41,050 nt of DNA from a virus, in IMG/VR virus record IMGVR_UViG_3300031722_000074, positions 1 to 41,050 of that record; one strand, 5' to 3'. The notes beneath the pieces are model-generated. The model was not told where the DNA came from and ran no database searches. It saw only the letters and a program-made list of their open reading frames with translations. The position numbers and the translations under genes were made by a program. Positions within the stretch are counted from its first letter, which is position 1; the number at the start of each line of letters is the position of its first letter. Positions 7,796 to 29,397 of the stretch are shown piece by piece.

Positions 7796-9047
7796 AGATG
7801 CGAATCGTCCCTTCCGTGAAACTGGGGCTGCGGATGTTGTTGAGTCGCACCAGGCGTTCTGCGGCGTTGTACGGAAGGCCATGCAACAGGCACAGCACAT
7901 GCAAGGGCGTGGGCTGGGCCACAGTGATCTCGCGCAAGGTCTCGTACCGGACTAGGCGGTCACGGTACTGCTGCTGCAACGCCAGAGCCATGTCCTCCAA
8001 CGGCTGCGGGGCGCTGGTGTAGGGTCTCGCAGCATTCAGCAAGCCTCGCATGGCCACCACCATGCGCCCAACCTGGTCAGCCGTGGCAGGCATGGGAGGT
8101 GGCGAAAATGACTTGCCCACATAGTTGCTGTAGACGTCGAAGGTCACGGACTGCTCCAGCGCGACCTGGGCGTTGAGATTGTCCTCATCGGTCGCCATCA
8201 CCGCAGCAGCGATGCGAGCTCCAGTCAAGGAGGCCATCACACGCATGGCGCCATCCACAGGAGTCCCCTTGAAGTTGCCCACCAACGAATCCAGGTCGGT
8301 TGACAAGCGCTGGACTGCCAAGACCGGATCCGGAGCATTGATGGCGCTGCCCGACATCACATCGCACAAGGCGGTGATCTTGCGGGCCACCTGGCCCGGC
8401 AAGGTCGACGCGAAGTTCAGGGCATTGAAGGCCGCCGTCAACGGGGACGAGATGGCAAGCTGCAGCGCGTCGATCTTGTTCAACTGCGCAGAGATTGCGC
8501 TCACGTAGCTGTTGATCTTGTTGCCAAGGTTCAAGGCGTAGACCTTGTCCAACCACGATGGATCACTCAGATCCACCGGTCCGATGTCGCGGCACACGCC
8601 GCCCGGATCCAAGTCGGGGCACACGCCACCATCCAGCGCGGCTTGCGTTGCCGTCAGTGCCAGGTCGGAAGCATTGGGGCGATAGACCACACCCCAGTCC
8701 ATGCCGTCTTCGATGATGGTGAAGTCCACCTCGGCAGTGTCGATGCGCTGGTCGTACTTGGCGGCCACAGCACCGACCATTGCCTGGAAGGTCCCATAGA
8801 TGGGATGGCTGGCAGTGACGGATGCGCCCTGGCGCAGGACAGTCAGGAGGTCGACGTAGTCCGCAACTGCCTCCTTGCCGATGAATACGGTGCGCAGGCG
8901 AAATTCCATCTCATCGGCACCCAGGTTTTCGAGGATGGCGCCATTGCGTCCCGGCACGCGATGACGCACGATCGCGAACTTCATGTCGTCCGAAAGATCG
9001 GCGCAGGGAAGCACCAGATCACCAAGGGTCACAGTGAAGTCGGACAT
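7785..9047 (-). CDS. Baseplate/DNA circularisation protein N-like
   Basis: A 420-residue protein with the N-terminal pattern of the DNA_circ_N family (Mu gpN): an early RHRVPGRNGAILENLG motif, then FIGKEAVADYVDLLTVLRQG and GTFQAMVG. The middle is helical and Ala-rich, and the C-terminal section contains PTPLHVLCLLHG. In Mu, gpN is a baseplate protein despite its historical name. The start MSDFTV overlaps the tape-measure stop (TGATG). Length is close to that of the family. Confidence 0.85.
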   Translation of the reverse strand: MSDFTVTLGDLVLPCADLSDDMKFAIVRHRVPGRNGAILENLGADEMEFRLRTVFIGKEAVADYVDLLTVLRQGASVTASHPIYGTFQAMVGAVAAKYDQRIDTAEVDFTIIEDGMDWGVVYRPNASDLALTATQAALDGGVCPDLDPGGVCRDIGPVDLSDPSWLDKVYALNLGNKINSYVSAISAQLNKIDALQLAISSPLTAAFNALNFASTLPGQVARKITALCDVMSGSAINAPDPVLAVQRLSTDLDSLVGNFKGTPVDGAMRVMASLTGARIAAAVMATDEDNLNAQVALEQSVTFDVYSNYVGKSFSPPPMPATADQVGRMVVAMRGLLNAARPYTSAPQPLEDMALALQQQYRDRLVRYETLREITVAQPTPLHVLCLLHGLPYNAAERLVRLNNIRSPSFTEGTIRIYVR

Positions 9048-11299
9048 CAGTGCCCCAATGCCCACGGAGCGGTGAGGGAGCCAAGAGAATCGGATGCGGT
9101 CTTGAAGAATCCTGTCGGCTTATCTTGGGATACCTTGGTATTCGTGGAGCCATCCTTGGCGACATGCGTTTCCACGTTCAGGACGATGTTGAGTTTCTCC
9201 AAATCCTTGGCAGTTATGCCTGCCTGCTTAATATCGGTCGCGCTTGCGGATTGATACCCCATGCCGACACCAGTCTTCATCGCAGATTCGGCAACACGCT
9301 GCATATTCGATCCATTTGATGTCACATCGGATGCGTGCAGGAATCGTTGATTGACTGCGCGCATTTTCTTGTCGCCTAGATCCGCATCTTCTTCATACTT
9401 CTTCTGGCGTCTATTCGATTCAGCATCTTTGAGGCTCTGTCCAATAGCATTCCCAACGAACAAGCCAACAGTGTCGCCAATCTGCTGACCTATCAGCATG
9501 CCAATCGGACCACCAAAAGCACCTAAAGCAACACCCGCTGCGCCACCCAACGCACGCCCCCATCCTTCGGGGGTGTTTCCGTTTTCCGCAAAGGCCATGG
9601 CCGCGCCAACGCCTGTTATGCCGCCACCAATAGCTGCGCTGCGCCCCCACCGATTCCAGGAACTCATTGGGCGAGCGGGGCCGTACATCTCGGGGACAGA
9701 GCCAGCGCCCGACAACCCCTGAGCCCCATTCCCACTCAATCCAACGGAACCCATATTTACCACATAGACACGCTGCACTTCCATGCCAGCAACCTGCCCA
9801 AGCATGCTCGACGAACGCCCAGCATTTTTAGCTCCGCCGAAAAGTCCGCGGAACTCCTGGAACATCCGGTACATCTTCACGGAGCCCGCAACCGCCGCCA
9901 TCGCAAGGAGCCCCTTGGTGATATTGTGGATCAGAGTATCTGTAAGAACTGCATTTCCGTTGAAGAACGACAACGCCCTGGTGAGTGCAGCAAGCGGTGC
10001 AGACAAACTCTTGTCCGCAAACTCACGAAGCGCTCCCATTAGCCTGTTGATTTGGAACTTTGAGTCATTCACTCGTGCCGCAAAATCGTCATCCAGCATT
10101 TTGTTATTGCGCAGGTCACCACCGGCGTTCTTGAACGAATCAAAGGCTGTGAAGCCTTTCCCCTCGGCATACTGATTGGCCATCTTTTGAATCAGGCGTT
10201 GGGCCGGTTCATCAAAAACATTCGCCTTGATCAGGCCATCCATGTCTCCCTTAGTTCGCTTGATGATTTCCTTAACAATTTCCTCTGTAGAACGCTTAGA
10301 TCCATCCTTGTTCGTGAGCTTCAGGTTGCGAATTCCAGCCTTGGCTAGCTTCTTGTCATCCAGTTTGGCGATAGCTGTTCCCAGGCTCACGATCGATTCG
10401 GCAGCCGTCTCTGCATTTCCATTTGCAGTCCTTGACATTTGCACGAAGGCGCCAAACGACTTAAGACCATCCAAGCCTTGCACTCGAAAGTTCGGCATGG
10501 CCGTGAACATGCGTTCGCCTTGAGAAAGCATATCCTTGATCTCAAAAGCTCCGGTCTTGCCTTGGGCAACCAGCAGAGTCAAGGCTTGCTTCATTTGTTC
10601 TGGGCCTTTGATCCCGACGTTCTGCCCCAAGTTGGCGATCAGTCCTCCCATTTCTTCGACCGAGGATCCGGAGGCAGTAGCGGCAACGCCCATCAATTCC
10701 AATTGCTCGGTAGCAAGCTTCATGTCGCCGGTACGCTGAATTACGGCCCGCATCCCTCCCGCCAATTCTTCCGCGCCTTGCCCCGTGGATCTGGACACTT
10801 CCATGATCTTTGCTTTGGATTCAGTGAACCAACTGGCGAAGTTTTGCCCGTTGATCATTCCTTGGGCATCCCGTGCCGCAATGCCCATCTGGGTCATTTC
10901 ATCATTAAGATCCATCTGCTTTTTGAGGGCCAGGCCAATACCTGCGCCACCAGCCAATGCGGTGTATTGGTTCACGAACTTCTCGCTCCCCCACGACAAG
11001 ACCTTGCCGCCAGTGCGCAAGGACTGAGAGGCGCGGCCCAGATGGCTTGCTGCCTTGGATGCCTGTTCGGCCTTGCGGGCGAACCCATCGACATCTTCAC
11101 CGGCAGTGCGTGCACCTCGACTCATCCCATCCAGATCGCGCGCAGCCTCTTGAGTCTCCTTCCCCAGGACCTTAGTCTTCTTGCCAGCATTGGCAACTTC
11201 GTCGCCCATGCCTTCCAAGGCCTTGTCGCCTGCCTTGGCGGCGGCGACAAGGGCGCTTGAATTGGCTTTGAAGCCTACTTCGACGACGCTATCGCTCAC
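9047..11299 (-). CDS. Tail tape measure protein
   Basis: A 750-residue protein that sets tail length and is expected to line the tail lumen. It has a long helical N-terminal half with heptad-like Ala/Lys/Glu content, a central hydrophobic Gly/Ala-rich region (about 560-620, containing GGGITGVGAAMAF and GVALGAFGGPIGMLIG) that could form membrane-inserting hairpins, and a charged C-terminus. The start is GTG and overlaps the end of the frameshift product of the chaperone gene by 11 bases. The position after the chaperone pair is standard. A full-length tail of about 100 nm would be expected for this size. Confidence 0.9.
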   Translation of the reverse strand: MSDSVVEVGFKANSSALVAAAKAGDKALEGMGDEVANAGKKTKVLGKETQEAARDLDGMSRGARTAGEDVDGFARKAEQASKAASHLGRASQSLRTGGKVLSWGSEKFVNQYTALAGGAGIGLALKKQMDLNDEMTQMGIAARDAQGMINGQNFASWFTESKAKIMEVSRSTGQGAEELAGGMRAVIQRTGDMKLATEQLELMGVAATASGSSVEEMGGLIANLGQNVGIKGPEQMKQALTLLVAQGKTGAFEIKDMLSQGERMFTAMPNFRVQGLDGLKSFGAFVQMSRTANGNAETAAESIVSLGTAIAKLDDKKLAKAGIRNLKLTNKDGSKRSTEEIVKEIIKRTKGDMDGLIKANVFDEPAQRLIQKMANQYAEGKGFTAFDSFKNAGGDLRNNKMLDDDFAARVNDSKFQINRLMGALREFADKSLSAPLAALTRALSFFNGNAVLTDTLIHNITKGLLAMAAVAGSVKMYRMFQEFRGLFGGAKNAGRSSSMLGQVAGMEVQRVYVVNMGSVGLSGNGAQGLSGAGSVPEMYGPARPMSSWNRWGRSAAIGGGITGVGAAMAFAENGNTPEGWGRALGGAAGVALGAFGGPIGMLIGQQIGDTVGLFVGNAIGQSLKDAESNRRQKKYEEDADLGDKKMRAVNQRFLHASDVTSNGSNMQRVAESAMKTGVGMGYQSASATDIKQAGITAKDLEKLNIVLNVETHVAKDGSTNTKVSQDKPTGFFKTASDSLGSLTAPWALGH

Positions 11300-11477
11300 C
11301 GGGGGAAGTCACTTTCTGCCATTGCCCTGGCTGGTCGGGAGGTTCATTCTCAAGGCGCTCCAGCTGGATCGCCAGGAGCCATTGAGCATTTGTCAGCTCT
11401 GAAGTTGGGCGACCAAAGAACGCAGCAACCTTCTCGCCGTGGCGATACTGGAAACGCATCCAATGGTCGCTTCGGCA
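11289..11477 (-). CDS. -1 frameshift extension of the tail assembly chaperone
   Basis: In the -1 frame of the preceding gene, an open reading frame continues past its stop for 62 codons. It reads CRSDHWMRFQ, then GEKVAAFFG, SELTNAQWLLAIQLERL, ending SPGER just inside the tape-measure start. A slippery heptamer lies at its beginning. Read as a fusion, the product would be about 198 residues. This parallels lambda G/GT and the conserved chaperone frameshifts of dsDNA phage tails. An internal ATG at 11459 could alternatively give a separate 56-residue protein, but no good ribosome-binding site precedes it. Confidence 0.72.
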   Translation of the reverse strand, partial: CRSDHWMRFQYRHGEKVAAFFGRPTSELTNAQWLLAIQLERLENEPPDQPGQWQKVTSPGER

Positions 11478-11884
11478 TTTTTTCGCAAGCCCTCCATGAA
11501 GACGACAAAGTCCTCGTCGCTCATCGCCTCCAGATTGGGCGACACTTCGAGTTCATGGGCGCGATAGTCCTCTGCGAGCTTGTTTTGTACGTCAGTCGTC
11601 ACAAGCACCTTGAAGGAACTCAAGGTCGCCGTGATGGGCTTTCCAGATTCATCGGACAACGCACGGTAGAGAATCCGTATCGTTTCCTCGTCCTTGTAAG
11701 CTTCGATGGTATGGGCTTCTACCGGCACGCCCTCTGCGCGGAAATGCTTGTCGGCCGCGAACGTCGCTTCCTGAATTTCCGGCTTGGACAGCACGCGAAT
11801 CCAGACCGGCACATCGGTACCCGGCCAACGGATCTCGGCGCGAGCATTCGTACCGGCCTGGATGCGTTCGGCGATGGAGCTCAT
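11393..11884 (-). CDS. Tail assembly chaperone (short form), Mu gp41-like
   Basis: A 163-residue acidic protein between the tail tube and tape-measure genes, the place of the tail chaperone in Mu-like phages. It contains SIAERIQAG at the N-terminus, an EIRWPGTDVPVWIRVLSKPE segment and a helical C-terminal half. It should coat the tape measure during tail assembly and be absent from the virion. Translation overlaps the tube stop (ATGA). Some ribosomes are expected to slip at 11483-11477 and make the longer form. Confidence 0.8.
   Translation of the reverse strand: MSSIAERIQAGTNARAEIRWPGTDVPVWIRVLSKPEIQEATFAADKHFRAEGVPVEAHTIEAYKDEETIRILYRALSDESGKPITATLSSFKVLVTTDVQNKLAEDYRAHELEVSPNLEAMSDEDFVVFMEGLRKNAEATIGCVSSIATARRLLRSLVAQLQS
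11477..11483 (-). other. Slippery heptamer A AAA AAT for -1 frameshifting
   Basis: On the coding strand the chaperone codons read cgA AAA AAT. This fits the X XXY YYZ rule: both tRNAs can re-pair after slipping one base to AAA AAA. The zero frame ends 84 bases later, while the -1 frame stays open for 62 codons and encodes a plausible chaperone C-terminus. Confidence 0.75.
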
Positions 11885-12240
11885 TCGGTCACCTTTTCGG
11901 CAGTGAAGCTGTACGTGTAGGACAGTTCGGTCTTGCCGTCGCCGCCGCCGCTCTCGCCCTTCTTGAGCAGGTGCACCTCGTGCCAGGTCTTGCTGGTGCC
12001 TCCGTCGTAGTAGACCGTGAAGGTCACGCCCGACCCGTAGATGGCGGTGTTGAAGTTGAACTTCCCGCTCTGGGGCGGAGCGTACTTGATCGAGAACCCA
12101 TGCTTGGTCGAGATGGGAGCGTAACCGGTCTTGCCGATGAACTCGACTTCCTTGCCAAACTCCTCTTCGTTCTCCTTGAACTCCTGGATGTCATCGATGA
12201 CGGATCCATTGAAGTCGAAGGACATCTTGATGATGTTCAT
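11881..12240 (-). CDS. Tail tube protein, Mu gpM-like
   Basis: A 119-residue protein that polymerises into the inner tube of the contractile tail. It shows the typical pattern of the Mu tail tube family: short hydrophobic start, KMSFDFNGSVID, an acidic EFKENEEEFGKEVEF stretch, then strands ending SYTYSFTAEKVTE. GGGAGA precedes the ATG. It is preceded by the sheath gene and overlaps the chaperone start by four bases. Confidence 0.85.
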   Translation of the reverse strand: MNIIKMSFDFNGSVIDDIQEFKENEEEFGKEVEFIGKTGYAPISTKHGFSIKYAPPQSGKFNFNTAIYGSGVTFTVYYDGGTSKTWHEVHLLKKGESGGGDGKTELSYTYSFTAEKVTE

Positions 12241-12255: not shown

Positions 12256-13668
12256 TTACTGGATGAGGTCGATGGTTTCGCAGATCTGCTGCAGTCCCGA
12301 GACGATCCCAGCCGGGAACCGCTTGCGGATGCGGCTAGGGAAGTTGGGGTCAGGCTCGACCTGGAACAGGTCCTTGTGCTTCTCCACGTCCTGGAGGATC
12401 TCCAGATCCTGCAGCTTGAGCGCCAGGCTGTAGCTGTTCTTGTTGATCGATTCCCGAATGGTGGCGGTATTCTTGGCGCGCGGGAACTTCTTCTTCACCA
12501 TGGCCATGTCTTCCTGGCGCACGTAGTCCAAGATGGCGATGGACATCGTGTCCAGGAGCACCTGGTCACTCACGCCTGCGGTCGTGGTCCTGGTGGTCAC
12601 CAAGCGGACGATTTCCACCTGGCCGGTGGAGTTGACTTCCAGGGGCGTGACACCCGCAGACAGCAGAGCCTCCTGTTCGGTACGCCCCAGGCGCTGCGAA
12701 AGATCTGGAGCATGCACGCCCGCCAGCACGACACCGTTGTAGGGTCGGGCCGGATCGGTTTCGCTGGCCACCTGGGCCGCCGTGGCGGCCGCGATCTCGC
12801 ACGGCAGAGTCCAGCTCCCAGGCAGGTAGCTCAAGCTCACGCGTTCGTGATTCGTTCCCGTCGCAAGCGTCACCTGGGCGGCGATGTTTTTGGTCCCGGT
12901 CACGCCAGCGTAAGCGCGCCCAGGACGTTCCTCGATCGGAGACGACACCGCCTCCAGATAGGTCTTGATCTTTCCCAGATTCAATGCGCTGGCATCCCAG
13001 GCTGCGACCACATGGAACTGCCCAGGGAACACCAGATCCAAGGCCGGCTGAATGTCCGGGTCGGTGGCTCCTCCCGACATGGCGACGATCGCCACCGTGA
13101 CCCCCACAGCCGATACGGCGTAGTTGACTGCGATGCTGTTGCCGTTGGTGCCCTTGTTCTTGGCCGTCAGGGTGACCACTCCAGCGGCAGCGGAAGCAGT
13201 GACCGGCAAGGCGGCGACGGCATTGATGGCTGCAGCCAGGCGTGCAGCCACGACCGTCGGGGTATCACCTTGCAGGATTCCCACTTCGATGCGGGTGTAG
13301 GCGACGTAGGTCACCATCGATCCGTTGCCCGTGGCAGTCCCCGTGATGGTGATGGTTCCGGTTGCCGCCGCCGAAGCCGGCGCATCGTCCAGCGCCACGA
13401 CCCAGGGAGCCAGGTTGGAGTCCTGCGCCATGGCAGAGAGCACCATGCGATGCGCCACCGACCCTGCGCCAAAGAACGATGCGGCATAGGCCTCGCCGAA
13501 GACCTGCGTAGCCACCAGCGCAGGCGTCAGGCCCGATGTCAGGCGCTGAGCCACGATCAGGAGTTTTTGCGAGAAGGATCCAAGTCCTGCAGCCCCTGCG
13601 GTGTTGTACTTGGCGTAGAAGCCAGGCTTCAGGATGTTCGAAGGGATTCCAGTGATGTCAATGGCCAT
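12256..13668 (-). CDS. Tail sheath protein, Mu gpL-like
   Basis: A 470-residue sheath subunit that contracts around the tube at infection. The N-terminal FYAKYNTAGAAGL and KLLIVAQRLTSG segment, the VFGEAYAASFFGAGS block and the central Ala/Thr/Gly-rich insertion domain (about 95-205) follow the Mu gpL pattern. The C-terminal domain has RVSLSYLPGSWTLPCEIAAA and a DPNFPSRIRKRFPAGIV end. GAGGAAA precedes the ATG, which lies inside the end of the gp38-like gene. Confidence 0.88.
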   Translation of the reverse strand: MAIDITGIPSNILKPGFYAKYNTAGAAGLGSFSQKLLIVAQRLTSGLTPALVATQVFGEAYAASFFGAGSVAHRMVLSAMAQDSNLAPWVVALDDAPASAAATGTITITGTATGNGSMVTYVAYTRIEVGILQGDTPTVVAARLAAAINAVAALPVTASAAAGVVTLTAKNKGTNGNSIAVNYAVSAVGVTVAIVAMSGGATDPDIQPALDLVFPGQFHVVAAWDASALNLGKIKTYLEAVSSPIEERPGRAYAGVTGTKNIAAQVTLATGTNHERVSLSYLPGSWTLPCEIAAATAAQVASETDPARPYNGVVLAGVHAPDLSQRLGRTEQEALLSAGVTPLEVNSTGQVEIVRLVTTRTTTAGVSDQVLLDTMSIAILDYVRQEDMAMVKKKFPRAKNTATIRESINKNSYSLALKLQDLEILQDVEKHKDLFQVEPDPNFPSRIRKRFPAGIVSGLQQICETIDLIQ

Positions 13669-14930: not shown

Positions 14931-15920
14931 TCAGGCCGCGAGTTTGATGACGGCGGAGGGAATGAGGTTGAGAGCCAGCGGGTTGCTCTGAGCCTCCATG
15001 TCGTGCCCCTTGTCGAACTTCATGGGCACGGCCTTGGCGTAGAACTCCTGGCCGAGCGTGTTCACGGTCTCGGTGTAGTTCGCCGGAGCCAAGGCCTCGA
15101 CAAAGATCCCGGTGGCCACCGGGAACAGGTAGGCCTCCCCGTCGGCGATGAAGTCCTGACCCGACACCGTAGCGGCGTACTCGATGAACTCGATGCCAGC
15201 ATACGTGAACCCGCTTCGCACGTCCCCTGCCAAGCGGCTGGCCGCTCCATCCGCCTGCGAGTTCCAGTTGGCGTAAGCCGCCTTGACGGTGCCGTTCTTG
15301 GTGAGCCCGTCCATGAAGCCGGGCGAGCAGTAGCAGCGCCGCGAGTTGATCAGATGTGCCCCGGTCGCCTTGTCCATGATGCGAATCGCTTCCATGAACG
15401 TTTCGCGCGGGTCCGTATTGGTGGAAAAGCTCATGGCCTTGGTCGCCTGGGTCACGCCAAAGGCGTCGTAGAGGTCTGCAATGACCGTGCTCCCGTTGGC
15501 ATCCAGCAGCAGCCCCTTGATGGCTCCCAGGCGCTGGAATTCGCGCGTGACCGCCAGGTTGTTCTTCATGTCTTGGAGGGTCTCGGCGACCTTGGTGGAC
15601 ACGGATGCGAACTGGTCCTCCGAACCGAAGTCGCGAAGCCCCTGAACGTCTTCGGCCAGCACTTGTCCAGTCTGAGGCAGGTGCGTGGTCGTGAATGCGA
15701 TCGTCTTGCCTCCGCGAGCCGACACCGGAGCGCCCGGAGCGCGACGGGAGGTGTTGGCGACCAGCGAGAGCTTGCCTTGCTGCTCCTCGATCAGCACCTG
15801 GGTGGTGCGGATCGGGCGCGGCGTGAAGAGCTTCGAGTCTCCGATCCTGGTGGGCAAGAGCGGCAGCTTCTGGATCGAGGCCGTCAGGGAGGCGAAGGTG
15901 AAGAGATCATCGAGGTTCAT
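14931..15920 (-). CDS. Major capsid protein, lambda gpE-like
   Basis: A 329-residue protein of the phage capsid E family, the shell subunit of the head. It starts MNLDDLFTFASLTASIQKLP and has the family blocks TTQVLIEEQQGKLSLV, FTTTHLPQTGQVLAEDVQ, and a C-terminal P-domain with GIFVEALAPANYTETVNTLGQEFYAK. AAGGA lies 8 bases upstream. Mu itself uses an unrelated-looking capsid subunit (gpT); here a lambda-type E plus D pair follows a Mu-type protease. Confidence 0.9.
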   Translation of the reverse strand: MNLDDLFTFASLTASIQKLPLLPTRIGDSKLFTPRPIRTTQVLIEEQQGKLSLVANTSRRAPGAPVSARGGKTIAFTTTHLPQTGQVLAEDVQGLRDFGSEDQFASVSTKVAETLQDMKNNLAVTREFQRLGAIKGLLLDANGSTVIADLYDAFGVTQATKAMSFSTNTDPRETFMEAIRIMDKATGAHLINSRRCYCSPGFMDGLTKNGTVKAAYANWNSQADGAASRLAGDVRSGFTYAGIEFIEYAATVSGQDFIADGEAYLFPVATGIFVEALAPANYTETVNTLGQEFYAKAVPMKFDKGHDMEAQSNPLALNLIPSAVIKLAA

Positions 15921-15929
15921 GAATCGTCC

Positions 15930-16586
15930 TTAGATGGATGCCCTGGCAACCAGGCCCAGAGCTTTGAGGGTGGCGAGGGCGGAGGTCTTCTGGGCAGCAG
16001 TGGCGCCGTCGGGCCAGACCAGGAAGTCGGGATTGAGTACGGCTCCGCGTGCAACGACAGCGATCTTGCGGTCCGTCGCCTGGCTGGCAACCTCGTCCAC
16101 ACTGATGGCCGCAGCGATCTGGCTGCTGTCGTTGGCGGAGAAGTTGATCGGCACATATTTCTCGATGGCCGCTGCCGCGACAGTGATGTCGAATCCATCG
16201 CCAGCAACGAAGGCCGTACCGCCTGCAGTGATGGTGAACTTGATGTCGTCCGCAAAGGCGGTGCCGGTGACACCGGAGCCAATCACGTCGCCGCTGGGAT
16301 CCTCGACCGTGAAGGCCGTAGCCGCAGTGAAGCGCACGGTGTAGACGCCCACCTTGGCACCCGCCAGCACCGGAGTGGTGGCGTCCATTGCGACCGTACC
16401 GTTGCCGGTGTTGCCGCCGGTCTTGGCAGCGGCACTAGCTGCCCCGAGCAGGATCACGGCCAGGACCGTACCGATCACGGTGGTATTGCCGGCCTTGAGG
16501 GTGACGGCGTCCCGACTCCATTCCGGGCTCACTTCGTACGTGATGACATCGCTCGCGAATCGAGGCCTGTTGTACGTCTTGGTCAT
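15930..16586 (-). CDS. Head decoration protein, lambda gpD-like
   Basis: A 218-residue protein. The start MTKTYNRPRFASDVITYEVSP overlaps the protease stop (ATGA) with GGAGAAG upstream. The C-terminal part (PINFSANDSSQIAAAISVDEV, then KIAVVARGAVLNPDFLVWP) matches the gpD trimer-forming decoration domain. The middle (about 25-115) is a Thr/Ala/Gly-rich insertion that makes it twice the length of lambda gpD, perhaps an exposed surface domain. It should stabilise the expanded head. Confidence 0.82.
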   Translation of the reverse strand: MTKTYNRPRFASDVITYEVSPEWSRDAVTLKAGNTTVIGTVLAVILLGAASAAAKTGGNTGNGTVAMDATTPVLAGAKVGVYTVRFTAATAFTVEDPSGDVIGSGVTGTAFADDIKFTITAGGTAFVAGDGFDITVAAAAIEKYVPINFSANDSSQIAAAISVDEVASQATDRKIAVVARGAVLNPDFLVWPDGATAAQKTSALATLKALGLVARASI

Positions 16587-17719
16587 GGCTTCTCCTTCTG
16601 TGCTGCTGCGGCGCGCCGTTCGCATTCCGCGATGAGGGGATTGGAATTGGAGGCGGACGGGGAACGTCCTTCTCCCAGTTCGCCAAAGGCGACGATCTGG
16701 GGCAAGGAATCGATGATCCCTTCCAGGCTTGCCGGAATAGGGTCACCCTCGCCAAAGGACAGTTCGTCTGCCGTGGTGAGTGCGGCATAGAGGCCTTGGA
16801 ACTTGGTGCGCAAGACCGGCGACAGCCGCCCTGCCGCAACAGCCTTGTCCAAGCGCTCTCCAAAGGCTCGGGAGGCGGCCTCCCCTGCCGTGGATGCAAG
16901 CTTTCGGTTCGCTTCATCCAGCTGCGCTTGCAGCTCGATCTCCCTTGCCGTAGGCGCCGCAGGCGATGCGGGAGCAGGGGCGGTAGGAGCGCTTGCTGGC
17001 GAAGCAGGCTCTCCAAAGGATTGGCCACTGGCAGTGGCCGGATTCAGGTCGTAGGGGATCTCCAGGTTTTCGAGATTCTCGATCGCGTAGGCAGGCAAGA
17101 TCTTGTCGGCCGCCTCGATGCCCTTGTCCTCGATGATGGCTTCGCGCTGGCCGCGCAGCAGAGTACCCAATTCCTTCAGCCGCCATGCCAGGCGATTGAG
17201 CCACCCTCCCACCACCGTGCCCCAGTCGGCAGGAGCCCCAAAGACCAGGAGGTCATCGGTGGTGCTGCAACCAAAGGCCATGTCAGATTCGGCAAACAGT
17301 CCTTCACCGAATTCCAGAGCGGATTGATCCTTGAGGGATGGGTTCCATCCTCCCAAAATCCCCAGGTGGCGCAAGCCTCCGTTTGCGTAGAAGGCCGGGC
17401 TGTTGTACTTGTATTCGCCCTTGCGACAGGATTCGGCGAATTCAGGCGTCAGCTCGTCCACCCGGACGTATCCGTCAGTCCCGTCGAGTTTTGCCTCCAC
17501 CACGGAGGCCACGCGCGGGCTGTCGTGCTTGGGGTGGCCAATCACGGCAGGAGGCGTGTACCCGCTGGAGAGCTGCTTCTTGATGGCCTCCACCTTGGAA
17601 GCCACATCGCTGGAAGTGAAGGTCACCTCCTTGCCGCTCAAGGAGGTGAATGTTCCCGGATAAAGGATTTTCACCCAGGGATTGACGGGGGTAACCGATA
17701 GTGGAGCACGCTTGGTCAT
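16583..17719 (-). CDS. Head maturation protease and scaffold, Mu gpI-like
   Basis: A 378-residue protein matching the Mu I protease family: the N-terminal domain has PWVKILYPGTFTSLSG, AVIGHPKHDSPRVASV (the presumed active-site region) and EYKYNSPAFYANGG. The C-terminal third (about 250-378) is Ala/Glu-rich and helical, the expected scaffold part. It is the first gene of the leftward late operon and starts 120 bases from the first rightward head gene. The next gene overlaps by four bases. Confidence 0.88.
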   Translation of the reverse strand: MTKRAPLSVTPVNPWVKILYPGTFTSLSGKEVTFTSSDVASKVEAIKKQLSSGYTPPAVIGHPKHDSPRVASVVEAKLDGTDGYVRVDELTPEFAESCRKGEYKYNSPAFYANGGLRHLGILGGWNPSLKDQSALEFGEGLFAESDMAFGCSTTDDLLVFGAPADWGTVVGGWLNRLAWRLKELGTLLRGQREAIIEDKGIEAADKILPAYAIENLENLEIPYDLNPATASGQSFGEPASPASAPTAPAPASPAAPTAREIELQAQLDEANRKLASTAGEAASRAFGERLDKAVAAGRLSPVLRTKFQGLYAALTTADELSFGEGDPIPASLEGIIDSLPQIVAFGELGEGRSPSASNSNPLIAECERRAAAAQKEKP

Positions 17720-20283: not shown

Positions 20284-20508
20284 CCAAACCCGCTCAGGGT
20301 GCTTGATAGGGTTTCCCCCTCTAAAAACGCGATTCGTGCCGAACTCAAAAATCGAGCACCGCCACACGGGCGCAGAAATGGCCCTAGAAGGCGCGTCAAA
20401 ATCCAGACACACAACGACAGCACCGCACCGGCTGCTGCGGAATTTAAAGCGGTCTTCAAGCGGTTTCCGTCGATCCGTGCCATACAACCCCGTAGGAGAT
20501 GCTTCCTG

Positions 20509-22062
20509 ATGGCCAAAAAACACTCGAACCGTCCCAAAAACCGATCCAAAAGCGGTGGTAGACCCCAAAATCGGGGAGCTGAGGTCATATCTTTCGGGGA
20601 ATCACGCCTGGATGAGGGCGGACTGGGGCAGGAGCTGACGACACGCCAGCTCATTCTTCAAATGTCCGACCTCCAGGGCTTGCCCAACCCCGACCCGATC
20701 CTGCGGGCGGAAGGAAAGTCCCTGTCGGTCTACCGCACCATGGTGGACGGGCACCTGTCTGCCGTGATGTCCAAACGCACCGCCGCCGTGACGGCGCGTC
20801 CCTGGAGCATCGAGCGAGGCAAGGCGTCGGCGCGAGCCACCGCCAAGCTGCAGGACACCTTCGATCACTTGGATGTGCGCTCCATGACGGACACGGCCCT
20901 TGAGTCGCGAGCCTTTGGATACTCCGTCCAGGAAGTGATCTGGGATGTGGATGACTGGATCGTGCCTCGTCGCGTTGCCCCGCGTCCGCAGGAGTGGTTC
21001 CGGTTTGGGCTGCGCGGAGAGACCCGCTTCCTGGATGACACTGGGCTCAATCAGATCGTCCCACCCCGCAAGCTCCTGGTGGCGCGACATCGCGCCGACT
21101 ACCTCAACCCCTACGGCAAGCCCATCATGAGCGAGTGCTTCTGGCCACTCGCCTTCAAGCGCGGCGGCCTGAAATTCTGGGCGCTCTATTGCGAGAAGTT
21201 CGGGTTGCCAAAGACGGTCGGCAAGGTCCCGGCATCCATGCCCGAGCCGCAGAAGCTCGATCTCCTGATGCGGCTGGAATCCATGGTGCGCGCAGCTGCG
21301 GCTGTCATCCCGGACAACTCGAGCGTCGAGCTGCTGGAAGCCAAAGCCGGCGGAAGCCTGCCTCACCCCGACCTGGTCAAGTGGGCGGATGAGGAAATGT
21401 CAACGGCATGGCTGGGCGAAGTGCTGTCCACAGCCCCCGACGCTGGAGGCACCTATGGAGCCGCCAGGTCAGCCAATGAGGTGCGCGCTGATCTTGCTCT
21501 GGATGACGCCAATGCCGTCGAGGCCTTGTGCAACCAGCTCATCACCTGGATCTGGGACGTCAACGGTCTGCCGGGCCCGCTGCCGTGGTTTCAGATCCAC
21601 ATGCCCGAAGACCTCAAGGCCGCTCGGCTGCAACGCGACCAGGGCCTCTACCGGTTAGGTGTGCGCTTTACCCAGAGCTACTTCGAGGACGTCTACGATC
21701 TCACCCCGGAGCACATCAGTCGGATCGATGACAAGGCCGCTCCGGCCCCGATGGATGCGGCGGCGGCCTTCGGTGAGGCTCCCGAACATGACCACCCCGA
21801 CGAGGTCTTGCAGGATCTGCTAAAGCAGCTGCCAGACGGAGCCCTGGGAAAGCAGGCCAATGCCTTGGCCAAGCCCATCATGGAAATGGCGAACCGCTCG
21901 TCGGGATACGATGAGTTCCTGAAACTCCTGGACACCGAGTTCGCCGAAATGGATGCCCAGGAGTTGGAAGACGCGCTGGAGAGCTTTTGCGTGCTGTCGG
22001 AGCTGGCTGGAGCTACCGACGCAGCCAAGGACGCTCAAGCCACCTTGGATGCCGATGCCTGA
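20509..22062 (+). CDS. Portal protein, Mu gp29-like (DUF935)
   Basis: A 517-residue portal subunit, forming the ring through which DNA enters and leaves the head. The start MAKKHSNRPKNRSKSGG was chosen because AGGAG (20494-20498) lies 10 bases upstream. It shows DUF935 blocks: MSKRTAAVTARPWSIE, FGYSVQEVIWDV, LNPYGKPIMSECFWP with KFWALYCEKFGLP, and a C-terminal helical part. Length agrees with Mu gp29. Its end overlaps the next gene. Confidence 0.9.
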   Translation: MAKKHSNRPKNRSKSGGRPQNRGAEVISFGESRLDEGGLGQELTTRQLILQMSDLQGLPNPDPILRAEGKSLSVYRTMVDGHLSAVMSKRTAAVTARPWSIERGKASARATAKLQDTFDHLDVRSMTDTALESRAFGYSVQEVIWDVDDWIVPRRVAPRPQEWFRFGLRGETRFLDDTGLNQIVPPRKLLVARHRADYLNPYGKPIMSECFWPLAFKRGGLKFWALYCEKFGLPKTVGKVPASMPEPQKLDLLMRLESMVRAAAAVIPDNSSVELLEAKAGGSLPHPDLVKWADEEMSTAWLGEVLSTAPDAGGTYGAARSANEVRADLALDDANAVEALCNQLITWIWDVNGLPGPLPWFQIHMPEDLKAARLQRDQGLYRLGVRFTQSYFEDVYDLTPEHISRIDDKAAPAPMDAAAAFGEAPEHDHPDEVLQDLLKQLPDGALGKQANALAKPIMEMANRSSGYDEFLKLLDTEFAEMDAQELEDALESFCVLSELAGATDAAKDAQATLDADA

Positions 22063-23467
22063 GGCTCCGAAAAAACGCCTGGGGATAAGCCTCGACGTAT
22101 CCACCCAGGATGTCGCCAAGCTCTTTGGCGTGCCAGCCGAGCAAGCCATTGCCGCCTGGGAAAAGCGCATCTTGCCCAACAAGCCCAGCCCCGGCGATGT
22201 GGCAAAGGCGGCAAAGGGCATTCCCAACCCCAAGATCCCCTGGAAGTCTTCCGACGTCCTTTGGCATGGGCATAGCCGCGCCTTCTTCGTCGCCCGCATG
22301 ACGCGGGCCGACATCTTGGCCGACATCCACAAGGAGGTCGATCGGGCAATCCGCGAAGGCCGCACCTTTGAGCAGTTTCGGCGCACCCTGGAACCCACCT
22401 TGCGAGCCAAGGGATGGTGGTCGGGGGACGAGCCGGACCAGAAGTCTTTGGTGCGCAATCCCCAGACCGGCCAGGATGAGTGGACACGCCTGGGAACGCC
22501 GCGTCGCCTCAAGACCATCTACCAGACCAACAAGGCCGTCTCCTACGATGCCGGCCACTACAAGACCATGGATGACCTGGCGGACTTGCTGCCCTACCAG
22601 CAGTACCACGTACTTGACCATGGGAAGAATCGACGCGCCGCCCATCAAGCCTTGGATGGGCGCATCTTCCGAGCAGACGACCCAGCGCTGTCAAGCATCC
22701 GCCCTCGCAATGGCTGGGGGTGTGAGTGCCGCATGAACAGCATCACCGAACGCAAGGCGCGCCGTCAAGGGGAACTTCCGGAAAAATCCACCCTCGTCAC
22801 CAAGATGGCTCGCGTAGGGCGCGACGGACCGGAGGTGCAGATCCAAGGGATCGACCTGGGAGGAGGCAAGAGCTTTTACCCCGATCCGGGTTGGGCTTAC
22901 GATGTTTCCCGCAATGCCCGCGCCGTAGAGGATCTGGCCTGGAGGAAGATCTCGGCGCTGCCTGAACCGGCGCAAAAGACATTCGTCAATTCGATTGCAA
23001 AGGATACCGGGCTATTCAATAGCCGCGCATCGCAATGGAATACTTGGACCCAAGGCATCAAGGCAAGCGAAATCGCAAAAGGCGAAAGCGTTGCGATTGG
23101 ATGGATAGATCATCCGCTCCTATCCAAGGTCACCAAAGCCGCAGGGAAATCGATATCGCCCGTCGTCGTTACCGATGATAATGCCATCAAGCACGCCTTG
23201 CGCCCAACCAAGTCAAGCGTCCAAGCTTTGACGCTTGAGCAAGTTCAAGAGATCCCCGCCATATTGGCGGCACCATACCGTGCCGTTTGGGATGGCGACA
23301 ACTTGATCATTTACAGTCCTGCGCGCGCGTCAGCAAAAGGGCTTTCAAAGCGTGTCAATGCTCATACCAAACTGGTGTTCAAGCGCGATGCATCTGGGAA
23401 CATGACCCTGGTGACCGCAAGCGAAGTCGAGGCAAGCGCCTTGAGTACAGTCGGGACGACCCTATGA
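22055..23467 (+). CDS. Head morphogenesis protein F-like with C-terminal nuclease-like domain
   Basis: A 470-residue minor head protein of the SPP1 gp7/MuF family (Mu gp30). The MuF region (about 75-230) includes FEQFRRTLEPTLRAKGWW, YQTNKAVSYDAGHYK and the metal-binding-like RPRNGWGCECRM. After a linker, residues of about 366-470 form a second domain: VVTDDNAIKHAL, then an IPAILAAPYRAVWDGDNLIIYSP block and a late VNAHTKLVFKRD. That pattern resembles the PBECR-type RNase domains that some phages attach to MuF proteins. The injected head protein could thus carry an effector into the cell. The C-terminal part is more AT-rich than the rest. Starts at 22049 and 22055 are both possible. Confidence 0.8.
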   Translation: MPEAPKKRLGISLDVSTQDVAKLFGVPAEQAIAAWEKRILPNKPSPGDVAKAAKGIPNPKIPWKSSDVLWHGHSRAFFVARMTRADILADIHKEVDRAIREGRTFEQFRRTLEPTLRAKGWWSGDEPDQKSLVRNPQTGQDEWTRLGTPRRLKTIYQTNKAVSYDAGHYKTMDDLADLLPYQQYHVLDHGKNRRAAHQALDGRIFRADDPALSSIRPRNGWGCECRMNSITERKARRQGELPEKSTLVTKMARVGRDGPEVQIQGIDLGGGKSFYPDPGWAYDVSRNARAVEDLAWRKISALPEPAQKTFVNSIAKDTGLFNSRASQWNTWTQGIKASEIAKGESVAIGWIDHPLLSKVTKAAGKSISPVVVTDDNAIKHALRPTKSSVQALTLEQVQEIPAILAAPYRAVWDGDNLIIYSPARASAKGLSKRVNAHTKLVFKRDASGNMTLVTASEVEASALSTVGTTL

Positions 23468-24585: not shown

Positions 24586-25344
24586 ATGACAAAGCCCATC
24601 GTCCCCTGGATCGGCGGCAAGCGCAGGCTTGCCAAGTCGATCTTGCCCCTCTTTGGGGAGCACGTGTGCTATGTGGAACCTTTCTGCGGAGCGGCTGCGC
24701 TGTTCTTCTTGAAGGAGCCATCCCGAGTCGAGGTGCTCAATGACGTGAACGGCGAGATCGTGAATCTCTATCGGGTGGTGCAGCACCACCTGGACGAGTT
24801 CCTGCGCCAGTTCCGCTGGGCATTGATCAGCCGCGAGATCTACAAGTGGCTCCAGGTCACCCCCAGCCAAACTCTCACCGACATCCAGCGAGCGGCACGA
24901 TTCTTCTACCTCCAAAAACTGGCTTTCGGAGGAAAGGTCTCTGGACAAACGTTCGGCACCGCCACCACAGGCTCGCTACGCCTCAATTTGACGCGCATGG
25001 AAGAGGAGCTATCCCAGGCCCACCTGCGCCTGGCGCACGCCACAATCGAGCACCTGGACTGGGCCGAGTGCATCCGCCGCTACGACCGGTCCCACAGCCT
25101 GATATACTGCGATCCTCCGTACTGGGGGACCGAAGGGTACGGCGTGCCGTTCGGGCTGGAGCAGTACGACCGCCTGGCAGAACTAGCCCGCACCATCACG
25201 GGGCGCATGATCATCTCGGTGAACGACATCCCCGAGATGCGCAAGGCCTTCGATGGCCTGACCATCGAGCGTACGGAACTGGCCTACACGGTCGGCATCA
25301 AGGCCACCGCCCCAATGGGTGAGCTCATCATCCGCAACTGGTAA
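24586..25344 (+). CDS. dam: DNA adenine methyltransferase (Dam/D12 class)
   Basis: A 252-residue N6-adenine methyltransferase. The N-terminal PWIGGKRRLA and PFCGAAAL (32-39) form the S-adenosylmethionine-binding motif, and DPPYW begins at D176 as catalytic motif IV. Length suits a D12-class Dam. It probably methylates phage DNA to resist host restriction, as Mom does in Mu, or adjusts regulation. Target specificity cannot be read from sequence; GATC is the usual one. A stable hairpin follows the stop. Confidence 0.9.
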   Translation: MTKPIVPWIGGKRRLAKSILPLFGEHVCYVEPFCGAAALFFLKEPSRVEVLNDVNGEIVNLYRVVQHHLDEFLRQFRWALISREIYKWLQVTPSQTLTDIQRAARFFYLQKLAFGGKVSGQTFGTATTGSLRLNLTRMEEELSQAHLRLAHATIEHLDWAECIRRYDRSHSLIYCDPPYWGTEGYGVPFGLEQYDRLAELARTITGRMIISVNDIPEMRKAFDGLTIERTELAYTVGIKATAPMGELIIRNW

Positions 25345-27950: not shown

Positions 27951-28462
27951 ACGCCACGACCAACGCAGTGACCAGAGGCAAAGTCAGTCGCCACGGAATC
28001 GCCAGCACCAATCCGGGCGCCTTCTGGTGGGGTGAATGGATGGCCACCGAATGCGGACGCCAGGTCATTGTCCTCCATGGCGAAGACACTGACGCCAAGT
28101 GCTACGCCGATGATGGCGGAAGCATTGGTGAGCTGCTCGGCACCTGCGAGCTGATTGAAAGCAGCATGAAAGCCGCAGCAATGGAGCCCTACCCCTTCGC
28201 CGCCCGTGTCCAACCGGACCTCACCATCACCTTCCCCTTCGACAGCATCCAGCGTCATGCGCCATGGATCCGCAAGGAACATGTCGGCTCGTGGGCTGAG
28301 GTAAACGGTCGCATCAGCGAAGACATCCTCCTCGTCAAAATCCTCTTGCCCTGCGAAAAAGGCCCCGTCTGGACTGCTGGCGTGACTCCCTACGCTCCGA
28401 AGACCATGCTCTGGAAAACCCTCGTCGAGTGCGGCGCGGAAAATATGGATGTGGCCGCATGA
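27947..28462 (+). CDS. Small protein resembling the transposase C-terminal domain
   Basis: A 171-residue protein. Residues of about 26-75 align with residues 505-555 of the transposase encoded at 29889: WWGEW (27-31 here, 506-510 there), AKCY, and LLGTCELIES against LIGVCQLIEA. The DNA is also alike around the WWGEW codons. In MuA this is the beta-barrel domain after the catalytic core. The protein has no catalytic DDE region. It may modulate transposition by competing in the transpososome or by binding DNA. The C-terminal half (about 80-171) is not recognised. It overlaps both neighbours by four bases. Confidence 0.7.
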   Translation: MNATTNAVTRGKVSRHGIASTNPGAFWWGEWMATECGRQVIVLHGEDTDAKCYADDGGSIGELLGTCELIESSMKAAAMEPYPFAARVQPDLTITFPFDSIQRHAPWIRKEHVGSWAEVNGRISEDILLVKILLPCEKGPVWTAGVTPYAPKTMLWKTLVECGAENMDVAA

Positions 28463-29397
28463 GTTCCGTCTTCATCCCGGAAGAGGCCAAGCCCTACTGC
28501 AACCACATGGGGATCATCAACTGGCATGCGATCACGGAGCTGATCCGCCAGGAGCGCGGCGTAGAATCCTACCTGGAGAGCGGCTACCAGCTTGGGCTGA
28601 TCCTCGAAGGAACGATGGAAGACAAGCGCGGCGCTCTCCCGATCATGCGCCGCCTCAAACTGGACGAGATCATCAGCGCCCGTCGTCACAACAGGCATCA
28701 TCCCCATTTCATCAAATCAAAGGAGTTGGCCGAAAGGTTTGCTGCCGACTTCGATATCGATATCAGCCAAGTCCCCGGTACTGGCCCAGACGGAATGGTT
28801 CTCAAACGCGACGTGGTCGCCTACCGTCGTTTCCTCAAGGCAGGTAAGATCGCTGTCATACAGTCCCTAGAAACCGCTGCAGAAGACGATGATGCATCAA
28901 AGCCGGTCAGATGCCCTTCGAACCAAGATCGCCTCCTCCGCCAGCGCCGTATCCTGGCCAGGCACATCTACCGGATGAAGATGGCTGAACGTGAAGCTGT
29001 CTCGACTCTCGACGCCGCTTCACGGGCAATCCACAATCTGCACGGCGAGGTGGATGCCGCAAACATCCGCACCGACGACGCCACTGATCGCCTGGCAGCC
29101 ACCTCCGAGAGGCTAGCGGAAGCCTTGATCGACAAGCTCGCAGTCGAATCCAGGCTCAGCCGTGCCGAGCAAATGTGCGACGCTCTTCGGGCCGATCTCT
29201 ACAAGGCCTGCACCGACCGCACCAACGCCATTGCCCGCGCCATTGCCGCTGAAGAGCGGGCCGCCCAGGCCGACAGGATACTCTCGCAGATCCTGAGCGA
29301 ACTGCACGCACCGCGCACCCTGCGCCGCACTGGAACTTGGCTTGACCACGTCATCGGTTTCCTGTTCCGCCTTTCCCCGAAAGAAGCCCACGCATGA
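28459..29397 (+). CDS. Coiled-coil early protein with peripheral-subunit-binding-like domain
   Basis: A 312-residue protein. Residues of about 85-130 carry the E3-binding (peripheral subunit-binding) pattern: AERFAADFDIDISQVPGTGP, G-x-V-x-K-x-DVVAY. This small fold binds partner subunits in 2-oxoacid dehydrogenases, and a related fold binds DNA in Lsr2-type proteins. Residues of about 165-290 are long helices rich in Ala, Arg and Glu, probably a coiled coil, with QRRILARHIYRM at the start. The C-terminus ends in a short hydrophobic helix. Location in the early operon before transposase suggests a DNA-related or scaffold role. The start overlaps the upstream stop. Confidence 0.65.
   Translation: MSSVFIPEEAKPYCNHMGIINWHAITELIRQERGVESYLESGYQLGLILEGTMEDKRGALPIMRRLKLDEIISARRHNRHHPHFIKSKELAERFAADFDIDISQVPGTGPDGMVLKRDVVAYRRFLKAGKIAVIQSLETAAEDDDASKPVRCPSNQDRLLRQRRILARHIYRMKMAEREAVSTLDAASRAIHNLHGEVDAANIRTDDATDRLAATSERLAEALIDKLAVESRLSRAEQMCDALRADLYKACTDRTNAIARAIAAEERAAQADRILSQILSELHAPRTLRRTGTWLDHVIGFLFRLSPKEAHA

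Follow-up and report, generated by a model that had tools for sequence, protein, structure and literature searches.

A probable -1 translational frameshift in a putative, divergent G/GT-type tail assembly chaperone gene of a Mu-like phage

The stretch of DNA analysed here (the window) is a single virus record of 41,050 bases (IMGVR_UViG_3300031722_000074). It carries a series of Mu-like genes, encoding a Mu-type transposase C-terminal domain, an AAA ATPase, Mu portal, Mu F, Mu gp36, gp48, and sheath and baseplate proteins, together with head proteins of the lambda type, namely Phage_cap_E and head decoration protein D. The head module is mosaic, with the Phage_cap_E major capsid and decoration protein D genes (14934-16625, minus strand) lying beside those for the Mu-type portal and Mu F (20299-23464, plus strand).

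The tail module considered below lies on the minus strand. It includes a Mu-like tail sheath protein gene (12256-13668; phrog_165, E 1.7e-119; Pfam Phage_sheath_1, E 4.8e-11), whose search matched 65 phage records. This is followed by a gene for a probable tail tube protein (11881-12240), assigned by its position and without a significant family match in Pfam or PHROG, and by an open reading frame of 163 aa (11393-11884; ATG at 11884, TGA at 11395-11393), which we consider the 0-frame tail assembly chaperone, analogous to G of lambda. The tail tape measure protein gene comes next (9047-11299; GTG start at 11299; phrog_794, E 1.7e-26; PhageMin_Tail, E 1.4e-14). The order sheath, probable tube, chaperone and tape measure, all on the minus strand, is that in which a G/GT pair is placed, the tube being recognised by position only.

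Within the chaperone gene, the heptamer A AAA AAT occupies positions 11477-11483 (minus strand) in the context CGA AAA AAT GCC (11485-11474), where CGA AAA AAT are codons 134-136 of the 163-aa frame. The 0-frame codons AAA and AAT (135 and 136) become AAA AAA in the -1 frame, and the -1 register of the heptamer was checked. It differs from the heptamer of lambda, which is G GGA AAG. From the slip position, the -1 frame (11289-11477, minus strand; the analogue of T) runs for 62 codons (11477-11292) to a TAG (11291-11289), encoding a peptide that starts CRSDHWMRFQYRHGEKVAAFFGRPTSELTNAQWLL. It spans the 27 codons that separate the heptamer from the 0-frame stop, as well as that stop itself, and ends 11 nt inside the tape measure frame, the GTG start of which overlaps the end of the extension. 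The predicted fusion is 136 + 62 = 198 aa long. An earlier, sequence-only reading of the same DNA had pointed to A AAA AAT in the proper frame and to a 62-codon -1 frame ending at the tape measure start; the first proved exact to the nucleotide (11483-11477, codons 135/136), and the second is confirmed by the overlap of the TAG at 11291-11289 with the gene starting at GTG 11299.

An in-frame heptamer followed by an open -1 frame is, taken alone, modest evidence and suggestive only. Among 20,000 random synonymous recodings of the chaperone gene, 15.7% contained any in-frame X XXY YYZ and 1.3% an A6 or T6 heptamer, and 3.6% had a heptamer whose -1 frame ran on for 10 codons or more after the 0-frame stop. 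The 133 open reading frames of at least 100 aa in the window, many of them spurious, contain 55 in-frame heptamers, and for 13 of these, the chaperone's included, the -1 frame extends at least 5 codons beyond the stop of the frame itself. It is the conservation in relatives that makes the chaperone site far more than what chance would give.

Relatives were sought by scanning viral contigs with patterns taken from that part of the 0-frame alignment which precedes the slip site. Six contigs were returned, two of them identical to the window and four distinct, and scans with the -1 peptide returned the same six. Some of the sequences in the alignment behind the 0-frame scan came from the -1 scan, but the patterns searched for, like the tblastn check, were based on the 0-frame protein only. 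Scans made earlier with contig L004, or with just the 0-frame protein of the window, recovered three of the six (L004 and the two identical records). The latter agree with the window at every one of the 7998 and 8489 bases compared and were excluded from the independent count, so that conservation is assessed on only five distinct sequences, the window and the four relatives L004, L007, L008 and L010. Scans of bacterial and archaeal genome contigs yielded no relatives, and neither the 0-frame protein nor the extension found a match in the named phage genomes.

The four distinct relatives share 52-63% identity with the window's 0-frame protein, and neither the slippery site nor the -1 frame, whose loss in close relatives would have spoken against the sequence-only reading, has disappeared from any of them. 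At the slip position all four carry nine consecutive A in the same register, with the codons CTA AAA AAA AAG in L007 and L008 and CTC AAA AAA AAA in L004 and L010, the runs thus ending in A AAA AAG or A AAA AAA. A homologous -1 extension, 44-66% identical to that of the window and with the common core QYR...K..AFFG....ELT.AQWLL, follows in each. The 0-frame stop occurs at the same alignment position in all four relatives, and both C-termini are conserved. In the five sequences the extension's stop falls between 11 nt inside and 3 nt before the tape measure frame, which in the relatives encodes 735-780 aa.

The pattern of substitutions was then considered on both frames, using as a measure the fraction of identical codons among aligned identical residues, with the first ten alignment columns excluded upstream. 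Codon identity was 0.44 upstream of the slip site (651 comparisons; highest value in any 28-codon stretch, 0.503), 0.66 in the two-frame overlap (170 comparisons) and 0.34 beyond the 0-frame stop, counted in the -1 frame (103 comparisons over 19 columns), and third-position identity in the 0 frame rose from 0.40 upstream to 0.68 in the overlap. Past the 0-frame stop, positions 1, 2 and 3 of the -1 codons scored 0.64, 0.79 and 0.36, as is typical of coding sequence read in the -1 register. There the -1 frame is free of stops in all five sequences, with a mean pairwise score of 76.9; the remaining two frames, both interrupted by stops in all five, score 28.0 and 23.6. Both frames are thus under selection. 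In five sequences out of five, the -1 extension reaches to about the tape measure start and is under selection, as in G/GT pairs.

Searches against Pfam and PHROGs with five members of each part gave no convincing match for either the 0-frame protein or the extension; the weak matches were scattered over unrelated families, concerned one or two members and had a best E of 0.0033. The AlphaFold model of the 0-frame protein has a mean pLDDT of 66.5, so that fold matches are to be taken as indicative only. Its best match in the PDB was the HK97 tail assembly chaperone 2ob9 (Foldseek probability 0.99, E 0.045). HK97 is a phage with a non-contractile tail. In the VIA comparison, where a Z below about 13 may reflect a common arrangement in mostly helical models, the model and 2ob9 gave Z 9.6 with an rmsd of 3.9 over 99 aligned residues and 11% identity, and the next solved match was YqbN with Z 7.1. 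In the first 21 rows of viral models, six entries bear the name tail assembly chaperone and one that of tape measure chaperone, none of them reaching an E below 0.001, and across both the PDB and the viral models no Foldseek match passes E 0.001. With modest confidence, the predicted fold of the 0-frame protein is nearest to that of the HK97 tail assembly chaperone. The 'chaperone-like sequence' of the sequence-only reading is not backed by protein families, with no significant match in Pfam or PHROG, but the predicted fold and the gene order give it some support.

For comparison with named phages, five were chosen from the top of the sheath and tape measure match lists (65 and 4 records, respectively). 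In four of these Mu-like phages, which share the gene order of the window, the chaperone frame contains a -1 heptamer in register, and the -1 frame continues 37-74 codons beyond the stop of the chaperone. The heptamer is A AAA AAG in Klebsiella ST405-OXA48phi1.1, SuMu and Mannheimia 3927AP2, as compared with A AAA AAT in the window, and T TTT TTG, in the same register as the window's, in Bordetella PBb001. In profile comparisons, the chaperones of SuMu, Mannheimia 3927AP2 and the Klebsiella phage and their extensions showed no credible homology to those of the window (probability 3.2%, E 0.014; 2.2%, E 0.022); these three are thus not detectably homologous to it. Candidate -1 extensions in public Mu-like records are located at 6088-6300 in L014, 5587-5877 in L015, 5585-5872 in L017 and 5701-5859 in L016. 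In three of these four records the last half to two thirds of the extension is listed as a separate hypothetical protein, and in one nothing is listed. In the stretches shown, the joined product is annotated in none of the five records, a separate small coding sequence being given in three and nothing in two.

The fifth phage, Alteromonadaceae phage B23, has a chaperone frame without an in-frame -1 heptamer (L018, 3468-3963). Its +1/-2 frame extends from before the chaperone stop to the tape measure start, like the -2 shift reported for Mu.

The principle of frameshifting in tail chaperones is long established. The G/GT pair of lambda is described in PMC5009743, which calls such shifting widely conserved among long-tailed phages except T4, and in lambda, as in the window, the gene lies ahead of that for the tape measure (PMC5009743). 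A frameshift site is listed for Mu, FluMu, P2, lambda and D3 in PMC2628397, which credits Xu et al. 2004, and the same source states that no frameshift site was found in the Mu-like phage KS10. A frameshift predictor described in PMC10885494 was trained on 2476 phage genes with a frameshift, the majority of them for tail assembly chaperones. In the gp41 region of Mu, a tail module similar to that of the window likewise changes frame ahead of the tape measure, although the shift of Mu is -2, as given in PMC5009743 and PMC2628397, and that of the window -1. A Mu-type -2 (+1) shift was considered for the window and rejected: its +1/-2 frame ends 13 codons after the 0-frame stop, where 51 nt still separate it from the tape measure start, and is not conserved beyond the 0-frame stop.

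We conclude, with a probability of approximately 0.93, that this is a gene for a tail assembly chaperone of the lambda G/GT kind with a -1 frameshift, in an uncultured Mu-like phage with a contractile tail. The proposal of a G/GT-type pair made in the sequence-only reading finds its support in the site and extension of the relatives, in the gene order and, with modest confidence, in the predicted fold. The phage very probably makes a short and a long form of the chaperone by a -1 slip at the run of A. Most ribosomes would read through to the TGA (11395-11393) and give the 163-aa short form. On A AAA AAU a minority would move back by one nucleotide, both tRNAs pairing anew on AAA AAA, and would go on to produce the 198-aa form, whose 62 C-terminal residues are different and finish where the tape measure gene begins. 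If the parts act as they do in lambda, the tape measure protein would be bound by the shared N-terminal portion, and the tail encoded in the -1 frame would recruit the tube subunit. That the slippage is made by the ribosome is inferred, as are its efficiency and the assembly role of each product.

Another possible explanation is that the frame is changed by RNA polymerase, which would slip and insert an extra A into the transcript. The run of nine A at the site in all four distinct relatives would suit such an event, and runs of A7 and U7 are mentioned in PMC4066793 as possibly subject to transcriptional slippage. The distant Mu-like phages, however, have A AAA AAG (three) and T TTT TTG (one) in the same register, which argues for the ribosome, a point weakened by the length of their A runs, which is about eight in one of them or more. 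The window itself has six A followed by a T, which is short for polymerase slippage, and nevertheless keeps the ribosomal heptamer in exact register. We therefore consider slippage of the polymerase in place of the ribosome very unlikely.

The -1 segment could also be a separate small gene with a start of its own. In the window an ATG is present at codon 9 of the extension, counted from the first slipped AAA, TTG or GTG codons are found in L008 and L010, and a small coding sequence is annotated at this place in three of the five public Mu-like records. The ATG of the window, however, is not conserved; the extension of L004 (66 codons) has no ATG, GTG or TTG, that of L007 has one TTG only, near its end, and in L008 and L010 no TTG or GTG comes before codon 37 and codon 30, respectively. 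Conservation, in contrast, starts close behind the heptamer, and independent initiation at start codons of these three types fails to explain why it does so, which leaves a separate gene even less probable than polymerase slippage.

The least credible reading is that the two-frame layout comes from a mistake in sequencing or assembly, from gene decay or from chance. The window does contain 262 open reading frames of at least 60 aa, and homopolymer runs are prone to sequencing errors, but such a reading is already contradicted by the comparative data, namely the two further identical records, the four divergent contigs with the same two-frame layout and both C-termini conserved, the shared position of the 0-frame stop and the suppression of synonymous change.

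Returning to the -1 ribosomal shift, two candidate stimulators were considered. A possible hairpin (11436-11476, minus strand) is situated directly 3' of the heptamer, its core stem starting 6 nt after it. Its folding energy is -19.6 kcal/mol in the window (z -2.91) and -18.5 in L004 (z -2.74), both better than shuffled sequences; in L008 the value is -12.1 kcal/mol (z -0.70), with 45 of 200 shuffles as good, and in L007 and L010 no hairpin was found 3' of the heptamer. With 81 nt folded, the window prefers another structure (-31.1, z -2.63). In the alignment of the stem 88.9% of cells pair, but the same value is reached by 110 of 500 shuffles, and the five sequences show no compensatory changes in the stem. 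A conserved stimulatory hairpin was thus rejected as a general feature, being missing in two relatives and having a stem no better than shuffles. The second candidate, a weak one, is a Shine-Dalgarno-like GGAGGG (11490-11495, minus strand), 6 nt upstream of the heptamer. The spacing of such elements that is best for -1 shifts is larger than this. An aligned GGAGGA is present in L007 only, and GGAGG occurs in two of the five sequences.

The site A AAA AAU of the window should be weaker than those of its relatives, because ZZN codons of mixed purine and pyrimidine shift less in E. coli than AAA or AAG, as reported in PMC4066793. The same source calls the comparable A_AA.A_AA.C a low-efficiency motif, yet one used by a proven IS case (PMC4066793). 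Our conjecture, drawn from five sequences, is that the hairpin of the window compensates for its weaker heptamer. It may be imagined, as a rather unlikely course of events, that this lineage exchanged an ancestral run of nine A for the weak A AAA AAU and that the ratio of products was restored by a strong downstream hairpin. If this were true, the ancestral run could have slipped both in transcription and in translation, the heptamer having replaced that state, and the strengths of motif and stimulator would have evolved against each other inside a doubly coding stretch. Whatever the case, the aligned natural sites, with their different heptamers and downstream structures, can be used for asking how the rate of shifting is kept in range.

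The chaperone pair is very probably a sequence-divergent member of the G/GT kind, and the comparative evidence is strong enough for naming it as such ahead of experiments. Frameshifted tail chaperones thereby gain a pair without a match in either collection, the long form of which would escape annotation that ignores frameshifts.

Two further genes of the window may be mentioned. A D12-class adenine DNA methyltransferase (24586-25341, plus strand; E 1e-25) is a candidate for self-modification of the phage DNA. Just upstream of the genes for the Mu-type transposase and the AAA ATPase, a protein of 322 aa (28429-29394, plus strand) carries a Pfam E3_binding (peripheral subunit-binding) domain (E 9.2e-9), which by its name is unexpected in a phage.
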